From positions 496,001-560,000 of the forward strand of contig NZ_FZPD01000005.1 of assembly GCF_900188325.1 (NCBI RefSeq): DNA of 64,000 bases. The letters are read 5' to 3'. This document shows, one piece after another, positions 7,520 to 64,000 of this stretch; the first letter of the stretch is position 1; every line of letters starts with the position of its first letter. The DNA comes from Ekhidna lutea (GTDB taxonomy: Bacteria; Bacteroidota; Bacteroidia; Cytophagales; Cyclobacteriaceae). Below the pieces are notes generated by a model. It was not told the origin of the DNA, ran no database searches, and saw only the letters and a list, made by a program, of their open reading frames with translations. A program made the position numbers and the translations under genes.

Positions 7520-8041
7520 TTACTTTAAAATACTCATGTATTCGGTCCAAGGACCTACTTCAACAGTGTATTGTTTAGCCATAACCCTGGAAATCTGAGC
7601 TACGTGTCCCAAATCATGTACGACCCATCCGGAAAGTAGATTTCTAAGTGTTACCGGTCCTAAACCTGGGTGCATTCCTGTTTTATTTAGATCATTCTCA
7701 GAGATACTTAGTGACTGTAATTCTTTTAGATTAGCTACTCTAAGTCGTTCGAACTCATCCAGCAACTCATTGATGGTTTTGCCCTTGCTTTTCTCAAATT
7801 GAGCAAACCGATCGAATGGATCAAAAGGCCTGGATTCACCGTGCTCTAAAATGGTTTTTGTTCTTGCAATCCAGTCGGTTTGTTCCCCATGGATCAGATG
7901 TCCTACCACATCAAACGGACTCCAGGTTTCCGCGCCTTCATTGGGAGTAGTCCAGTCTTCAGGCAGGTCTTTTAGAATTTCTTGAAGTACACTTGGCGTA
8001 CGCTCCAGAATAAGGATAGATTTTTTAAGGTTGAATTGCAT
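7520..8041 (-). CDS. DinB-like protein
   Basis: 173 residues of the DinB/YfiT four-helix bundle family. Visible are the metal-ligand type histidines: the first in the GHLIHGEQTDW helix and a second group in WVVHDLGHVAQISRVM. Such proteins are small cytosolic metal-binding proteins, some of them thiol-dependent transferases; the substrate here is unknown. A structured 180-base gap with two palindromes separates it from the upstream DUF2306 gene. Confidence 0.8.
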   Translation of the reverse strand: MQFNLKKSILILERTPSVLQEILKDLPEDWTTPNEGAETWSPFDVVGHLIHGEQTDWIARTKTILEHGESRPFDPFDRFAQFEKSKGKTINELLDEFERLRVANLKELQSLSISENDLNKTGMHPGLGPVTLRNLLSGWVVHDLGHVAQISRVMAKQYTVEVGPWTEYMSILK

Positions 8042-8150
8042 ACTTAAAGATATACAGGGTCTTTTACTTCCCGATATTCCCTTGCGATCAACGGGAAGAT
8101 AGACTTGGGATCTTAGTTTCTTGAAATTTCCAGAGACTCATAGGTCTACC

Positions 8151-57162: not shown

Positions 57163-57860
57163 GCTGGATCGATACGGAATATCTTTTCCAGGTTGAAGCA
57201 TCTGAAAAAGAGATCATCCGTAATTTTTGGGACGCTGAATTTAACCGGCCCTTTTATGAAGTTGGGCAAGATGTTTTCTTAACACAAGCTAAATCTAAAC
57301 TGGCTGGATTCGCAGCTTCTGATTTTAAATCTGTAGATGACATATATGCATTAATTCATCCTGATGATGTGAATCATGTCGTGAATTTTTCAATTCGTGG
57401 GTTAGATTTTGTCAATCATGAAATGAAAATGCCACTCTTATGCAGGTCTCAGTTTGTTTTACGCTTAAAATCAAAATGCGGTTCCTACAAAACATACCTT
57501 AGGGAATGCTTCATAAATGGAGTTAAAGGAGGAAAGGCGACCCGAAATGTAGGATATTTAAAGGATATCTCATGGATGAACGGGGTGCAAATCAGGGCAT
57601 GGAAAATGGACGGTGAAGGCGCGGAGTTTTTCGATTACAGTTTTCCTGAAGCCAGGAAATTCACTAAGACACTAACATCTCGGGAAATTGAAATATTGAG
57701 ACTCCTCGCCCGAGGCTTCCACTCCAGGGATATTGCCGAAGCTCTTAAGATTTCGCGACTTACAGTAGATACACATCGCAGGAATATGCTCAGAAAGGTA
57801 GAAGCGGCAAACACACCCGAATTACTCACTTTAGCATGGGATATGAATCTAAAAATATAG
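57138..57860 (+). CDS. PAS-LuxR regulator, array member 2
   Basis: 240 residues. The same layout: PAS-like part with IYALIHPDDVNHVVNFS and VLRLKSKCGSYKTYLRE, then LuxR HTH LTSREIEILRLLARGFHSRDIAEALKISRLTVDTHRRNMLRKV. Its start ATG and first codons (MGYESKNI) lie within member 1, in another frame from that gene's AWDMNLKI end. Closest relative is member 3. Confidence 0.85.
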   Translation: MGYESKNIGWIDTEYLFQVEASEKEIIRNFWDAEFNRPFYEVGQDVFLTQAKSKLAGFAASDFKSVDDIYALIHPDDVNHVVNFSIRGLDFVNHEMKMPLLCRSQFVLRLKSKCGSYKTYLRECFINGVKGGKATRNVGYLKDISWMNGVQIRAWKMDGEGAEFFDYSFPEARKFTKTLTSREIEILRLLARGFHSRDIAEALKISRLTVDTHRRNMLRKVEAANTPELLTLAWDMNLKI

Positions 57861-58561
57861 CGATAGATGACTTGAAAGGGGTCTTTGAACCGAGTGCCAA
57901 TTCGGAGGAACAGGTTGTTCGTGATTACTTTTCTGTAGAATCCCAGGGACCAACATATGAGGTAGGCAAAGATCAATTTCACATAAACAAAAGAGTGCGA
58001 CGAATTGTAGGTTATTCAACCTCTGAACTTAAGTCTTTGGATGATCTATATGCATTAATTCATCCAAACGACCTGGATTTTGCGCTGGACTTTTCAATTA
58101 AAGCGATTAGTTTTTCGAATCGTAAAATCGATGATTTGTTCACTTGTCGGACACAATCAGTTTTTAGGATGAAGGGAAAAGGGGGAAACTACAGACTTGT
58201 GAATCGAGAATCGTTGATCAGTGGGGCAAAAGATGGAAAAATCACTCGAAATGTGACCTACCTGAATGACATTTCCTGGATGAAAGGTGTAAAAAGTGGC
58301 TCGTGGAAAGTTGAAGGTGATCATGCCGAATTGTTTGATTACAAGTATTCTGAAATTGAAGGCTTTTCCGATGTATTAACAAGTCGCGAAGCTGAGATAT
58401 TGAGACTCCTGGCCCGCGGCTTTCACTCCAGGGATATTGCTGAAGCCCTCCAAATCTCAAGACTAACAGTAGATACACATCGAAGAAATATGCTCCGAAA
58501 GGTAGATGTGGCAAACACACCCGAATTACTCACTTTGGCGCGGGATATGAATCTTTTCTAA
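57836..58561 (+). CDS. PAS-LuxR regulator, array member 3
   Basis: 241 residues. PAS-like with LYALIHPNDLDFALDFS and VFRMKGKGGNYRLVNRE, then HTH LTSREAEILRLLARGFHSRDIAEALQISRLTVDTHRRNMLRKV, nearly identical in DNA to member 2 over the last about 150 bases. It starts inside member 2 in the same 25-base overlap, again with MGYESKNI. Its own end has changed to LARDMNLF, so no further overlap occurs. Confidence 0.85.
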   Translation: MGYESKNIAIDDLKGVFEPSANSEEQVVRDYFSVESQGPTYEVGKDQFHINKRVRRIVGYSTSELKSLDDLYALIHPNDLDFALDFSIKAISFSNRKIDDLFTCRTQSVFRMKGKGGNYRLVNRESLISGAKDGKITRNVTYLNDISWMKGVKSGSWKVEGDHAELFDYKYSEIEGFSDVLTSREAEILRLLARGFHSRDIAEALQISRLTVDTHRRNMLRKVDVANTPELLTLARDMNLF

Positions 58562-59344
58562 ATGATTGATAATAAATCAAACGCAGTGGCCATGAACAAG
58601 GTGTGGCAAACCTTCAAATCCAACTTTGGAGAAGTAACTCCTCTTAAAAGGCCTCAACTTGAAAAGTACTTGGGTGACCTGTTTTGTGTGGGCGATTTTT
58701 ATTATTACGTAATTGACTTTTCATCTTTTCCTGAGCTTAACCTGTCTTACATAGACCAAACTGCACTTGATTACCACGGTGTTTCAAAGGAGCAATTTTC
58801 ATTAGACTATGTTCTATCGTCCGTTCATAAAGAGGACATGCCTTTTTGTACAGCCTGTGAAAATGTAATTATGGAATATTTTGCAAGCCTGGAAAAGGGA
58901 GAAATGCTGAATTATAAAAGTAGCTATACGCTACGAATAAAAGATGCCTCTAATGAGTTTCAGTTCATCCAGCATCAGGGGGTTCCAATCGCGCTGGATG
59001 CAGATGGTGGAATGACGCATGCCCTGAATGTACATACCAATGTGAGTCACATCACCAATGAATCCTGTGGGAGTATGTCGCTTCTTGGACTCAACGGACG
59101 ACCCTCATTTGTAGGAATAGATCCTTTCAATCCTTCGTTTAGCAAAAAATCCAACCCACTATCAAACAGAGAGCGGGAAGTGCTGTCATTACTGTCTCGC
59201 TGGTTTACCTCAAAAGACATAGGCAAGTCTTTGAAGATTTCTGAACACACCGTCGGCACGCACCGAAGGGCCATGCTGCGAAAATTGGATGTAGCCAACA
59301 CAATAGAGTTGATCCAAAGAGCGAAAGCCATGCTCTTGTTCTAA
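58562..59344 (+). CDS. PAS-LuxR regulator, array member 4 (divergent)
   Basis: 260 residues, starting at ATG directly after member 3's TAA. The PAS-like part is more diverged (VLSSVHKEDMPFCTACENVIMEYF, YTLRIKDASNEFQFIQHQG). HTH: LSNREREVLSLLSRWFTSKDIGKSLKISEHTVGTHRRAMLRKLDV. Probably the oldest paralogue of the array (inference). The downstream gap carries a GTCAATACC/GGTATTGAC inverted repeat. Confidence 0.82.
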   Translation: MIDNKSNAVAMNKVWQTFKSNFGEVTPLKRPQLEKYLGDLFCVGDFYYYVIDFSSFPELNLSYIDQTALDYHGVSKEQFSLDYVLSSVHKEDMPFCTACENVIMEYFASLEKGEMLNYKSSYTLRIKDASNEFQFIQHQGVPIALDADGGMTHALNVHTNVSHITNESCGSMSLLGLNGRPSFVGIDPFNPSFSKKSNPLSNREREVLSLLSRWFTSKDIGKSLKISEHTVGTHRRAMLRKLDVANTIELIQRAKAMLLF

Positions 59345-59484: not shown

Positions 59485-61197
59485 ATGAAAGCTTTAACCC
59501 TCATCGCCCTGTTTGTAACTATGATAACTTTTCAATGCTGTGATTTAGGCTCAGATGAAGATAATTCACTGCTTGAAGCAAATTTTAGTGTGGTTGAAAG
59601 AAATGTAGGCACGGACGAGCAAGTGCTATTTCAAGATGAATCCACAGGCAATCCTTCTACATGGCTGTGGGAGTTTCCCGGAGGCTCCCCGGAAACATCT
59701 ACAGAGCAGAATCCTACGGTGACATATGCAGAGGAAGGTTTTAAATCAGTTACGCTTACTGTTTCTAATGGAAGTGAAACTGATATGGTGGAAAAAATAG
59801 ATTACATAGAGGTGGACTCAGATCCAACTGTTGAAGATGATTTTGTAGCTGAATTTGAAGTGGATAAAAATGTGGTTGAAGTTGGAGAGGAAGTTCAATT
59901 CACAGATATTACTGAAGGAGCTACTTCATGGGAGTGGGAATTTCCCGGTGGTAATCCGGAAGTTTCGACTGAACAAAATCCAATTGTCACATATTCAACT
60001 GCCGGCTTCAAGACTGTTGTTTTAGTTGTCACTAATGGTGAGGGTAAGACTAGTGTGAGTGAGAATGAAAACTTTATTGAAGTAATTACCCCACAACTAA
60101 CTGAGAGTGAGCTTATAGAGAAGTATGATCAGGCTTTGATAGACTTGAAGCAATTCATTCAATATACTTATCTCTTTGATGCAGTGCTCACAAATCAATA
60201 TGAACTCAGCGGGGATTGGTCAGACATTTACAATCATACATATTCTCCAAACAGTGTTAAAGTGGAGAAGTTATGGAATGATGGTTTCCAAATATTAGAT
60301 GATATCGCATTGATGTATTTGAATCTTTCAAATATTTCAGATCAAGAACTAATGAATCTGTACGATAGTAGATTGATTATAGTGGATTCATATGTTAGAC
60401 ATAGTCTATTAAACTATTTTGGATACATTCCTTTTTACGGACCCCTGAAAACAGATGAACTCAGTTGGAGGGTTGCGACGTTGGCAACAATCGAGGATAC
60501 AGATCTGTTGATATACGATATTTCAGGACAGGCAAACAGTCTACCGGAATTTGATAATGGCTATTATGTAGAATATGGCTCTGAGGTAACATTCACAGAC
60601 GCGTTCCTTAAAGCTTTTAGAATGCGATTTAGCCTGACGTCTATAAGCGGTTTAACGCTGAGAGACCCTTTTGATATAGAAGCTGATTTTGAAGACATAG
60701 CGCTAAATCATGTTTATATACAGAGTCCTTATGAGGAAATTTTTGATAACGGATGGAGACGTGAAAGTATTTTGGGTTTTGCAGCTGACGGGGATGCAGA
60801 ATTCAGTAGTTTTTTCAACATAGGCGATTATGTGCCGGTTATTCGAGCAACAGAACCCACACTTATTTATTTAGAGACCTATTTGAGGCAAAGAAATCCA
60901 GATGAGATTATTGGTGATGAGGCTGATGAAATAAATGATTTTGAAGCCATTTATAATGAATTAGCCACTTATCATGGATACGAAGGCTTGCCAACAACTA
61001 CAAATGAAGAAATTCTGGATATTTTATTTGAGGTTTGGATAGAGGATTTTAGGTATGAAGGAAGAGCATTCCAGGTGATGAAGCGCTTTGACAAAGCCAG
61101 AGATATGCTTGGCATAGAAGATTACCAACAATTGCTTCCAATTCCACAATCTGCGATTGATGCTAATGTAAATATTGTTCAGAATGAGGGGTATTGA
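59485..61197 (+). CDS. SusD/RagB-family lipoprotein with two PKD domains
   Basis: 570 residues. A lipoprotein-type signal ends at a Cys-Cys (ITFQCC). Two PKD domains follow (about 33-112 and 120-205), each with the WxWEFPGGxPExSTEQNPxVTY pattern. From about residue 210 a SusD-like helical fold continues to the diagnostic end LLPIPQSAIDANVNIVQNEGY. SusD proteins sit on the outer membrane beside a SusC TonB receptor and capture glycans or peptides; no SusC gene is adjacent here. The ligand is unknown. A bidirectional terminator follows. Confidence 0.88.
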   Translation: MKALTLIALFVTMITFQCCDLGSDEDNSLLEANFSVVERNVGTDEQVLFQDESTGNPSTWLWEFPGGSPETSTEQNPTVTYAEEGFKSVTLTVSNGSETDMVEKIDYIEVDSDPTVEDDFVAEFEVDKNVVEVGEEVQFTDITEGATSWEWEFPGGNPEVSTEQNPIVTYSTAGFKTVVLVVTNGEGKTSVSENENFIEVITPQLTESELIEKYDQALIDLKQFIQYTYLFDAVLTNQYELSGDWSDIYNHTYSPNSVKVEKLWNDGFQILDDIALMYLNLSNISDQELMNLYDSRLIIVDSYVRHSLLNYFGYIPFYGPLKTDELSWRVATLATIEDTDLLIYDISGQANSLPEFDNGYYVEYGSEVTFTDAFLKAFRMRFSLTSISGLTLRDPFDIEADFEDIALNHVYIQSPYEEIFDNGWRRESILGFAADGDAEFSSFFNIGDYVPVIRATEPTLIYLETYLRQRNPDEIIGDEADEINDFEAIYNELATYHGYEGLPTTTNEEILDILFEVWIEDFRYEGRAFQVMKRFDKARDMLGIEDYQQLLPIPQSAIDANVNIVQNEGY

Positions 61198-61300
61198 TGA
61201 TGATTATTTGATTTAAATAATCAATTGATTATTCTGAATTATTCCTAGAGACTTTATAAAAAAAATAAAACTAAGGCAGATTCAACCATTGTGTTGATCT

Positions 61301-61329
61301 AAAAACCAGCCCAAGGGGCTGGTTTTTTT
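61301..61329. terminator. Bidirectional terminator after the PKD-SusD gene
   Basis: CCAGCCC/GGGCTGG, a 7-bp GC-rich stem with a 3-nt loop, extended by five A-T pairs; A5 on one side and T7 on the other. It insulates thrA's promoter from upstream transcription. Confidence 0.9.
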
Positions 61330-61402
61330 GTTTAATAATAAATTTAGGATGGGCACACAGGCTGAGATTACAAAATGAATATGCAATATTCACCTGGATT
61401 AT

Positions 61403-61432
61403 TTTGATTATCCAATTACAACATTACATTTG
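61403..61432 (+). promoter_or_regulatory. Consensus promoter of the thrA attenuator
   Basis: TTTG (61403-61406), an 18-base spacer, then TACATTTG (61425-61432). It fits the Bacteroidota consensus. The -7 element ends eight bases from the leader peptide's ATG, so transcription must begin at or next to that ATG. Confidence 0.8.
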
Positions 61433-61439
61433 GCATCAA

Positions 61440-61514
61440 ATGAAAACGATTACAACAACTATTATTTCTAGAACGACAGGTACCACCGAGTATCCCTGTC
61501 ACAAGGAATGGTAG
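61440..61514 (+). CDS. thrL: Threonine-rich attenuator leader peptide
   Basis: A 24-codon reading frame beginning MKTITTTIISRTTGTT and ending in Trp-TAG. Eight of 24 codons are Thr (positions 3, 5-7, 12, 13, 15, 16) and three are Ile, as in the E. coli thr leader in concept though not in sequence. It lies between a consensus promoter and a strong terminator in front of the aspartokinase/homoserine dehydrogenase gene, which makes thr-operon attenuation its likely role. Ribosomes stalling on Thr codons would prevent terminator formation. No Shine-Dalgarno is possible because the transcript starts at about the ATG. Confidence 0.85.
   Translation: MKTITTTIISRTTGTTEYPCHKEW
61475..61500 (+). promoter_or_regulatory. 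Possible pause hairpin in the leader
   Basis: GACAGG (61475-61480) can pair with CCTGTC (61495-61500) inside the leader coding region. In classical attenuators an early hairpin pauses RNA polymerase until the first ribosome loads. This one is only 6 bp with a 14-nt loop, so the role is tentative. Confidence 0.4.
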
Positions 61515-61552
61515 TTGCTGAAGTATAAAAACTGTATCCAAAAGCGCCATTC
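61505..61552 (+). promoter_or_regulatory. Candidate antiterminator pairing
   Basis: GAATGG (61506-61511), lying over the last two sense codons, right before the TAG of the leader, is complementary to CCATTC (61547-61552) in the 5' arm of the terminator. Pairing would break the terminator. A ribosome reaching the leader stop would cover GAATGG and let the terminator form; a ribosome stalled at upstream Thr codons would leave it free. Confidence 0.6.
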
Positions 61553-61575
61553 TAGATTAGAATGGCGCTTTTTTT
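61543..61575 (+). terminator. Attenuator terminator before thrA
   Basis: AGCGCCATTCTA (61543-61554) and TAGAATGGCGCT (61558-61569) form a perfect 12-bp stem with a 3-nt loop, followed by T7. It ends at the base before the thrA ATG and is the off-switch of the threonine leader. Confidence 0.92.
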
Positions 61576-64000
61576 ATGTCTGAGCTTATGAAAGTATTAA
61601 AATTTGGTGGTACTTCCCTGAAGAATAAGGAAGCAATCAAGCAGGTAGTTGAGATTGTTGCTTCATCAGACTCAGCAGTCTGTATGGTTGTTTCAGCTAC
61701 CGGACATACCACGGATGAACTTCAGCAGGTTGCAGATGCTGCCAAAAAAGGCGATGAGAGCTATCTAAGATTACTTGAAAAGGTGGAGAAAAGGCACAAA
61801 AGCCTTTATGAGGCATTAACCGGTTCCAAAGAATCGGCTGATCTTTTGTCGTGCTTTTCTCAACTCAAGCGAGTTTGTGAGGGAGTGTATCTTCTTAAAG
61901 AACTCACCGCGAAAAGTCTGGACTTCATATTGGGAACGGGAGAAGTCGCTTCTTCCATTGTTGTGGCTGATTTTTTCAGCACGCAAGGGCTTGATGTGAT
62001 TCGGTTTGATACAAGGGAATTGATTGTCACGGATCAGCGATTTGGTGGGGCTAATGTAGATTTTGATAAAACATCAGTACAATTTCAAAATCGAAGAGAG
62101 CATTTTAAACAGGTTAATGTCTTTCCCGGCTTTATTGCTTCTACAGATACCGGTGAAACCACAACGCTTGGTAGAGGAGGGTCGGATTATACCGCATCAA
62201 TTATTGCTTCCATTCTAAATGCTGATTCACTTGAAATTTGGACCGATGTGGATGGGATCATGACTGCTGACCCTAATAGAGTGAAGCGATCACACACACT
62301 GGAGCAGGTATCCTATGACGAGGCACTCGAGCTTTCCTACTTTGGTGCTAAAGTAATCTACCCGCAAAGTATAGATCCGGTCTTGAAAGCGTCCATCCCG
62401 GTTTGGGTTAAAAACACGTTTCACCCTGAAAGAGCCGGAACACTGATCTCTAATGAAAATACAGACCAGCATCTCATTAAAGGGATTTCGAGTATTGATG
62501 AAGTGACAATTCTGTCAGTTAGCGGGAATACGCTGCGAAATGATAGTGCCTTTTTCCCACGCATATTCAGTGTACTGGCAAGGGAGGAAATACCCATTGT
62601 CTTTATGACTCACAGTAATGCAGGTCTAACGGTCACCATCGGGTTTACTCCGGATGATGCACAATTAGCATTGCAGACATTGAAAAGCGAATTTGCTGGC
62701 TCAGATGAGACGCATGTCATCAACTCTATCATAGTAGAGGATGGTTATTCGCTACTTGCACTTGTGGGGTCCAATATGAAAGATCAGATAGGTGTGAGCG
62801 GCAACATGTTTAATGTGCTGGGAAGAAATGGCATAAGCATTAAAGCAATCTCACAAGGCTCATCAGAGCGGAATATTTCTGCAATCATTCCCAACTCAGA
62901 TTTGGATAAAGCATTAAACGTTTTGCATGAAGGGTTTTTCCTTTCGTTGACCAAGCGGATTAACTTATTCATCATTGGTACTGGAAATGTAGGTAAGGCT
63001 TTTCTCGGACAATTGAAGAAACAGTTTAGTTTTTTGAAGGAGCATCATCATTTGAATATTAAAGTGATTGGTGTAGCAAACTCAAGGCAAATGGCTTTTG
63101 AAAAGGATGGGATTCCATTGTCGAAATGGGAAGAACATCTTAATAAAGGAGAGCCATTTGATAAAGAATCATTCGTTCAGCAAATGACTGAACTGAACTT
63201 CCGAAATTCGGTATTCATTGATATTACGGCTTCTGCAGATATTTCATCCATGTATAAAGAAGTTTTGGAACAAAGTATATCTGTGGTAACACCCAATAAA
63301 ATTGCTGCTACCAGATCTTATGAAGAGTACCTGGAATTGAAAGCGGTAGCAAAGAAATATAAGAGCCAGTTTTACATTGAAACAAATGTGTGTGCAGGTC
63401 TTCCTGTGTTGTCAACACTACATGACCTGGTGAGAAGTGGCGATCAGGTCATTAAACTCAAGGCTGTACTTTCCGGGACCTTGAATTTTCTTTTTAATGA
63501 ATACGACACAAAACAACCATTCGCTGATGTAATCAGAAAAGCAAAGGATATGGGCTATACAGAACCGGATCCGAGGCTGGACATTTCAGGAGAAGATGTG
63601 ATGCGAAAGCTGCTTATCTTGATTCGGGAAAGTGGCTACCCGATGGAAGCATCTCAAATAGCATTAACTTCCTTTTTACCTGACAGCTGTCAGCAAAGTA
63701 CGGATCTGAATGATTTTTATAATAAAATTGAATCAGCAGAATCGTATTTCAAGGAACTGTATGAGCGGTCTATGTCGAATGGCACACGGTTGAAGGTAGT
63801 AGCATCCTATGAAAATGGAAAGGGTAAAGTAAGTCTGGAGGAAGTGCCTGATTCTCATCCATTTTATCACCTGGAGGGAAAAGACAATGTAGTGCTTTTT
63901 TATACGCAGCGATATTCAGAACAGCCATTAGTCATTAAAGGAGCGGGGGCAGGAGCAGAGGTTACTGCTTCAGGGATATTTGCGGATGTATTACGTATTG
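61576..64000 (+). CDS. thrA: Bifunctional aspartokinase/homoserine dehydrogenase (3' end cut off)
   Basis: At least 808 residues, running off the window probably only a handful of codons before its stop (it ends TASGIFADVLRI, close to the family's C-terminus). Residues about 5-290 are aspartokinase (MKVLKFGGTSLKN, TTTLGRGGSDYTASIIA, IWTDVDGIMTADPN); then ACT regulatory domains (about 300-455); then homoserine dehydrogenase from FIIGTGNVGKAF near residue 465, with SGTLNFLFNEYD and GYTEPDPRLDISGEDVMRKL. It catalyses the first and third steps from aspartate to threonine. The ATG touching the terminator is used; a second ATG four codons later matches the usual family start. Confidence 0.97.
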   Translation, partial: MSELMKVLKFGGTSLKNKEAIKQVVEIVASSDSAVCMVVSATGHTTDELQQVADAAKKGDESYLRLLEKVEKRHKSLYEALTGSKESADLLSCFSQLKRVCEGVYLLKELTAKSLDFILGTGEVASSIVVADFFSTQGLDVIRFDTRELIVTDQRFGGANVDFDKTSVQFQNRREHFKQVNVFPGFIASTDTGETTTLGRGGSDYTASIIASILNADSLEIWTDVDGIMTADPNRVKRSHTLEQVSYDEALELSYFGAKVIYPQSIDPVLKASIPVWVKNTFHPERAGTLISNENTDQHLIKGISSIDEVTILSVSGNTLRNDSAFFPRIFSVLAREEIPIVFMTHSNAGLTVTIGFTPDDAQLALQTLKSEFAGSDETHVINSIIVEDGYSLLALVGSNMKDQIGVSGNMFNVLGRNGISIKAISQGSSERNISAIIPNSDLDKALNVLHEGFFLSLTKRINLFIIGTGNVGKAFLGQLKKQFSFLKEHHHLNIKVIGVANSRQMAFEKDGIPLSKWEEHLNKGEPFDKESFVQQMTELNFRNSVFIDITASADISSMYKEVLEQSISVVTPNKIAATRSYEEYLELKAVAKKYKSQFYIETNVCAGLPVLSTLHDLVRSGDQVIKLKAVLSGTLNFLFNEYDTKQPFADVIRKAKDMGYTEPDPRLDISGEDVMRKLLILIRESGYPMEASQIALTSFLPDSCQQSTDLNDFYNKIESAESYFKELYERSMSNGTRLKVVASYENGKGKVSLEEVPDSHPFYHLEGKDNVVLFYTQRYSEQPLVIKGAGAGAEVTASGIFADVLRI

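Follow-up and report, generated by a model that had tools for sequence, protein, structure and literature searches.

How is the threonine operon of Ekhidna lutea (Bacteroidota, Cyclobacteriaceae) switched on and off? Its first gene, thrA, begins near the end of the stretch examined here, the 64,000 nucleotides of contig NZ_FZPD01000005.1 from 496,001 to 560,000 (forward strand), which we call the window and by whose own numbering positions are given. For the region just ahead of thrA the original prediction had proposed a complete ribosome-mediated attenuator. Our analysis supports that proposal: sequence and folding models make it very probable that thrABC is governed by a ribosome-mediated transcription attenuator of the classical kind, and folding adds a 14-bp protector helix that the proposal lacked.

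The leader and its parts

What does the region contain? The promoter, the 24-codon leader with eight Thr and three Ile codons, the six-pair hairpin, the GAATGG segment and the terminator with its T7 run are all present as first described, at positions that were rechecked.

61403..61406, + strand: the -33 element, TTTG
61425..61432, + strand: the -7 box TACATTTG, of the TAnnTTTG type, 18 nt after TTTG
61440..61514, + strand: the threonine leader open reading frame (ORF), MKTITTTIISRTTGTTEYPCHKEW, 24 codons, from ATG 61440 to TAG 61512-61514
61456..61469, + strand: segment 1, a run of Thr/Ile codons serving as 5' arm of the protector helix in the minimum-free-energy (MFE) fold of the untranslated leader
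61475..61500, + strand: a small hairpin, GACAGG 61475-61480 with CCTGTC 61495-61500, nested in the protector, which the original prediction took for a possible pause hairpin (probability 0.98 without a ribosome)
61504..61517, + strand: segment 2, the final leader codons, the stop codon and 3 nt, whose partner is segment 1 or segment 3
61540..61575, + strand: the intrinsic terminator with T7
61546..61553, + strand: segment 3, a portion of the terminator 5' arm, which pairs with 61505-61512 of segment 2
61588..64000, + strand: thrA, a fused aspartate kinase/homoserine dehydrogenase I, continuing beyond the window end

By its sequence the leader promoter is of the Bacteroidota type, TTTG-18-TAnnTTTG, from which we infer a transcription start at about 61437. 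The Thr codons are numbers 3, 5, 6, 7, 12, 13, 15 and 16 and the Ile codons numbers 4, 8 and 9. The terminator stem (61540-61572) has 15 pairs, including A-T pairs with the T run at 61569-61575, and a loop of 3; the core of the alternative, antiterminator pairing joins GAATGG (61506-61511) to CCATTC (61547-61552). When both strands of the 64 kb were scanned, strict terminators numbered three on the + strand and four on the - strand, and an amino-acid-rich short ORF with a strict terminator directly after it turned up at one place only, the threonine leader itself.

Might the hairpin be a fixed partial terminator that lowers thrABC expression or blocks transcription from upstream, the Thr-rich ORF being incidental? 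Intergenic terminators are ordinary. However, the upstream gene, of the PKD/SusD type (59485-61197), is already closed by a separate terminator of its own at 61301-61327, and when the upstream region was shuffled with its dinucleotides kept, 0 of 200 shuffles attained the Thr density of the leader, 7 per 12 codons. Of 159 distinct thrA upstreams (hand-filtered), moreover, 58 hold a Thr-rich leader, one in which 12 codons include 5 or more for Thr, and fitting amino acids also mark the leaders of his, ilv, trp and phe in this genome. A fixed terminator is, on this evidence, highly unlikely. A metabolite-binding riboswitch or T-box ahead of thrA would likewise account for a long structured 5' region ending in a terminator, but when 60500-62500 was compared with 4227 Rfam families by cmscan, the six matches up to E = 1 included no riboswitch or T-box, and we find this explanation scarcely credible.

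Folding and the predicted switch

If the region is an attenuator, how would it respond to threonine? RNA polymerase would begin about 3 nt ahead of the leader ATG. When Thr-tRNA (or Ile-tRNA) is short, a ribosome translating the leader would stall on the Thr/Ile run and cover segment 1; segment 2 would then pair with the terminator 5' arm, and transcription would continue into thrA. When threonine is plentiful, the ribosome would reach the stop codon and cover segment 2, and the terminator would form. With no translation at all, segment 1 would pair with segment 2, and again the terminator would form.

We folded the transcript cut at 61556, ahead of the terminator 3' arm. The ribosome was represented, in simplified form, by masking all nucleotides through the twelfth after the first base of the A-site codon. 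With the ribosome stalled on each Thr codon in turn, the antiterminator probability was 0.69, 0.95, 0.98, 1.00, 0.99, 0.99, 0.99 and 1.00. With the ribosome at codon 20 it was 0.30, and from codon 21 onward, the stop codon included, 0.00. Without a ribosome it was also 0.00 in the window, because the Thr/Ile codons at 61456-61469 pair with 61504-61517; this 14-bp protector helix of the MFE fold sequesters segment 2, which could otherwise disarm the terminator. In the computation, then, the alternative pairings are mutually exclusive.

A second measure takes the whole 8-nt arm, with slightly different ends, as paired with anything upstream. By this measure the window averaged 0.88 across its Thr codons and gave 0.03 with the ribosome at the stop codon; with no ribosome it gave 0.15. 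The thr leader of E. coli K-12, a proven attenuator, served as positive control and gave 1.00 on the Thr codons (0.62 on the last one), 0.06 at the stop codon and, with no ribosome, 0.69. The whole switch behaviour of the window was matched by 0 of 60 shuffled spacers.

Conservation among congeners

Is the arrangement kept in relatives? Among named records the closest thrA genes are those of Ekhidna metagenome-assembled genomes. Nine congeners were searched, and an alignment with relatives had been proposed as a check of the original prediction. Promoter, Thr-rich frame and terminator are kept in three of the nine: G002 (locus L067, a sequence within L189), G007 (L085) and G009 (L084). In the window, L067, L085 and L084 the leaders have 24, 23, 21 and 19 codons, of which 8, 7, 6 and 3 are Thr; the reading frame and the 7-nt gap from box to ATG are constant. 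All four have TTTTG 33 nt from the leader ATG, and the match to TAnnTTTG 7 nt before it is 6/6 in the window, L067 and L084 and 5/6 in L085. In the terminator, 94.2% of cells are paired across the four sequences, as against 36-67% when the alignment is slid. G008, the tree sister of G009, has neither leader nor terminator upstream of thrA (L086, L004).

Does the short distance from box to ATG itself bear on the switch? In 4/4 congeneric leaders, 7 nt separate the end of the -7 box from the leader ATG. A -7 box in Flavobacterium psychrophilum occupies -12 to -5 (PMC9723704), and therefore about 3 nt of RNA would precede the ATG in all four species. The leader might be read from nearly leaderless RNA, in which case the switch would depend on Thr-tRNA and also on the supply of ribosomes able to start there, an idea we consider rather unlikely. 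It would be a variant of the attenuator and not its opposite, the Thr codons setting the specificity and initiation the ground level. The his leader of this genome has a perfect box too, at 9 nt. Leaderless mRNAs amount to only 5.5% in F. psychrophilum (PMC9723704), and 5' untranslated regions below 10 nt to about 3.7% in Bacteroides thetaiotaomicron (PMC7366714). On the other hand, the boxes are imperfect for trp (5/6) and phe (4/6), ilv has none close by, and the six perfect boxes that the window holds at 4-32 nt before its 53 ORFs are too few for a baseline.

Leader ends and terminator arms in other lineages

Does the end of each leader fit its own terminator better than that of another lineage? 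Terminator-bearing threonine leaders also precede thrA in L220-L223 (family f23), in L224 (f24, with few Thr codons) and in L243 (f35). In the 13 leaders examined, 20-34 nt lie between the leader stop and the terminator. In the swap test, 'foreign' omits rows grouped by hand as related, and L042 (below) and the phe leader were left out. Of 10 threonine leaders, 8 had an end that paired more strongly with its own terminator arm than with any foreign arm; the exceptions were L085, where the own arm beat 8 of 9 foreign arms, and L221, where it beat 10 of 12. For the window the duplex of segments 2 and 3 has -12.8 kcal/mol and is stronger than those with 9/9 foreign arms. In the reverse swap each terminator arm was set against foreign leader ends, and in 7 of 10 these all paired more weakly than the own end. 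The mean own duplex over all 13 leaders was -11.2 kcal/mol against -7.9 kcal/mol when permuted, a value reached by 0 of 20,000 permutations, relatedness being ignored. The pairing of leader end with terminator arm, first proposed from complementarity, is supported by folding, and by the swaps also in other lineages, whose sequences differ.

The ilv leader of E. lutea won 12 of 12 comparisons in both directions. Its his leader (1 and 3 of 12) and trp leader (8 and 1 of 12) fail the test, and their second segment therefore probably lies elsewhere or is weak.

A contig labelled Patescibacteria carries a Thr leader, MFRIISTTTTTTLSPLLRS, followed by a terminator that directly precedes a ThrA homologue (L042:1375-1485); read by eye, the leader end GAGGTCGTA could form a 9-bp pairing with the terminator arm.

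What speaks against the attenuator? Several observations do. By the second folding measure the first Thr codon gave only 0.3; the ribosome-free leaders of L067 (0.82), L085 (0.63) and L084 (0.51) are not predicted to be switched off; and shuffled spacers also paired with the arm at the stall, with a mean of 0.66, 6 of 60 equalling the window. In the reverse swap the own end beat only 7 of 9 foreign ends in L084 and L223 and 11 of 12 in L243. Six of the nine congeners (G001, G003, G004, G005, G006 and G008) lack this leader. In three of these, G001, G004 and G006, ThrA is more distant (46-47% identity); in G003 and G005 no full-length fused ThrA match was found; G008 (L086) is a case of leader loss. 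Covariation of the terminator, proposed at the outset as a check, was not above shuffles: 2 of 13 pairs changed on both sides, and 131 of 500 shuffles were as high, with four congeneric sequences only. The antiterminator was 87.5% paired with no pair changed on both sides, a value that 500 of 500 shuffles reach, and the protector was 78.6% paired with two such pairs, which 69 of 500 shuffles reach. Within the genus alone, with its four sequences, covariation does not exceed shuffles.

The operon and the start of thrA

What would the attenuator control? Downstream of thrA, outside the window, lie thrB (L187:3020-3943) and thrC (L187:3946-5214). All three genes were identified by NCBIfam equivalogs, and the operon makes the amino acid that the leader would sense.

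The original prediction placed the thrA start codon at 61576, directly after the T run. That thrA follows the terminator stands; its most probable start codon is ATG 61588 (MKVLKFGG...), the position at which relatives align, and not the in-frame ATG 61576. We had considered the in-frame ATG after the T run as a feature shared with relatives and rejected it, since only the window has the frame: in L067, L084 and L086 the ATG lies 11 nt upstream of the start and out of frame, and in L085 there is none at the position right after the T run. This out-of-frame ATG is common to L086 (G008) and L084. The tail after the terminator, T7-ATG-YCT (61569-61581 in the window), recurs in the thr, his and ilv attenuators of the E. 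lutea genome.

Among the neighbours, 59485-61197 encodes a protein with PKD repeats whose C-terminus matches SusD marginally. At 57836-59344 are two adjacent LuxR-type regulators with similar C-termini, the first with a PAS domain. Downstream of thrC, two similar ORFs (L187:6856-7164 and 7684-8115) both read MMPNHLHLLVYVQKDCKGLNSVLGEGKRFMAYEIISRL... and look like a duplicated REP-associated transposase.

Other probable attenuators in the same genome

Is the threonine leader alone of its kind in E. lutea? The hisG, ilvD, trpE, pheA and leuA genes were located via Pfam families, and four of them are preceded by a leader with the fitting amino acid and then a terminator:

L182:1182-1306, + strand: hisG leader, MRTQQLHHHVHHMLHSEETV
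L183:2708-2581, - strand: ilvD leader, MQNIIVNIVSILNVIIIYDMR, with a GTG start
L184:2967-2856, - strand: trpE leader, MITTKTYWWWHVDNFDC
L283:1324-1451, + strand: pheA leader, MNAQVSFYFSYYFFYPERIMGWL

Ahead of leuA no leader and terminator of this type were seen by eye in 400 nt. Leader and terminator thus precede five of the six amino-acid pathways looked at, threonine included.

Relation to known systems

How close is the window to the threonine leader of E. coli (thrL, RF00506)? The two share the Thr/Ile codon run and a leader end that, together with the stop codon, is complementary to the terminator 5' arm; the distance between the stop codon and the terminator's GC arm is 24 nt in E. coli and 29 nt in the window. 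In both, the terminator sits before a fused thrA, and the E. coli operon too has the order thrABC. Beyond the Thr/Ile run, however, the leader of the window is unlike thrL, and its promoter is of the Bacteroidota kind, close to the ATG.

The sole fitting cmscan match in the window is to Thr_leader (RF00506), at 27.1 bits, below the curated cut-off of 55. L067 (30.4 bits), L220 (36.5), L221 (36.0) and L222 (31.7) also score below it; no such match was found in L085 and L084 up to E = 0.5, or in L223, L224 and L243 up to E = 1. We rejected these scores as evidence of homology to the E. coli leader because the leader models of other amino acids cross-match about as strongly: in the E. lutea genome Thr_leader gives 24.5 bits on the his leader and His_leader 42.8 bits on the ilv leader, and Phe_leader gives 30.2 bits on L067 and 33.7 bits on L220.

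The same leader type is represented in the same phylum by RF01692, Bacteroid-trp, the Bacteroidete tryptophan peptide leader, which senses Trp and not Thr. The trpE leader of E. lutea scores 43.2 bits against it (cut-off 49); the threonine leader does not match it at any E up to 1. A comparative study of 2004 reportedly named Bacteroidetes/Chlorobi among the groups with such attenuators. According to a survey of 2010, no leader-peptide systems beyond Proteobacteria and Actinobacteria had been known before its own Firmicutes case (PMC2965389). Bacteroid-trp appears in a table of PMC2864571 and in the discussion of PMC6414381. In F. psychrophilum, leader-peptide attenuation of amino-acid operons was inferred from transcriptome and structure, the text on attenuation naming pheA and hisG elements and not thrA (PMC9723704), and in B. 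thetaiotaomicron short ORFs reminiscent of attenuation leaders are described (PMC7366714). The presence of an attenuator in a Bacteroidota genome is not surprising in view of F. psychrophilum, of RF01692 and of the four further leaders of E. lutea. Since attenuation in Bacteroidota is already published, the threonine attenuator is a further case of a known mechanism; in titles and abstract openings, among the matches listed, no description of a Bacteroidota threonine attenuator was found.

A second form of threonine leader

Do all threonine leaders of the phylum end in a terminator? Of the 58 Thr-rich leaders introduced above, 45 have a hairpin at the stop codon (z below -1.5). Eight of the 58 bear a terminator, and among these only L222 has a stop hairpin at z below -1.5. 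In the hairpin-at-stop form a short GC hairpin holds or abuts the stop codon, mostly without a clear terminator. We collected 63 such loci, for example L197-L202, L209-L219, L103-L111, L147-L164 and L225-L229; they were picked for Thr codons and a stop hairpin, and their rows are related, so that counts are not independent. CATAT follows within 20 nt of the hairpin in 38 of the 63 (at 8-10 nt in 28), the shuffles having a mean of 2.8 and a maximum of 9 of 63. By a loose rule six of the 63 have a terminator (L101, L130, L138, L139, L151 and L162), in L101, L151 and L162 through the stop hairpin itself, and therefore a weak terminator may be at work in this form. Consensus folding of these leaders gave the stop hairpin alone, with no pair changed on both sides; a larger alignment gave two such pairs. 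An alternative hairpin pair downstream of CAUAU, seen by eye in several sequences, is not established. Fourteen hairpin-at-stop loci, among 24 loci scanned, had no fitting Rfam match.

What might this second form do? Polymerase pauses stabilised by a hairpin are known from the his and trp leaders of E. coli. The spacing from hairpin to CAUAU resembles such a pause, and therefore the leader may time polymerase and ribosome and not use a U-run terminator. Tentatively, the terminator form of the window could be a local replacement of this different, phylum-wide threonine leader, a reading that we put forward as possible though less likely than not.

How often did the terminator form arise? The original prediction suggested independent origin or deep divergence. 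In a quick IQ-TREE phylogeny of 104 ThrA proteins, 11 rows have the terminator form, 'none' meaning that no leader was recognised in the examined stretch of up to 400 nt. The form falls into separate clades with four changes, all forced by strongly supported branches, which three gains and one loss could explain. The window clade (four rows with the leader, one without) is nested in a strongly supported clade of 20 rows, 16 of them without a recognised leader, and is separate from the f23/f24 clade. The grouping of L265 with L042 depends on long branches. The tree of sequences favours a repeated origin of the terminator form over an old presence with many losses, and to this extent it sides with the first of the two suggestions; an old presence with losses is the less favoured account.

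The E. lutea locus thus would offer a complete, testable threonine attenuator outside Proteobacteria. Leader peptides in Bacteroidota may be translated from nearly leaderless RNAs, and the classical terminator form together with the second threonine leader form, widespread in the phylum, makes up a contrast set.

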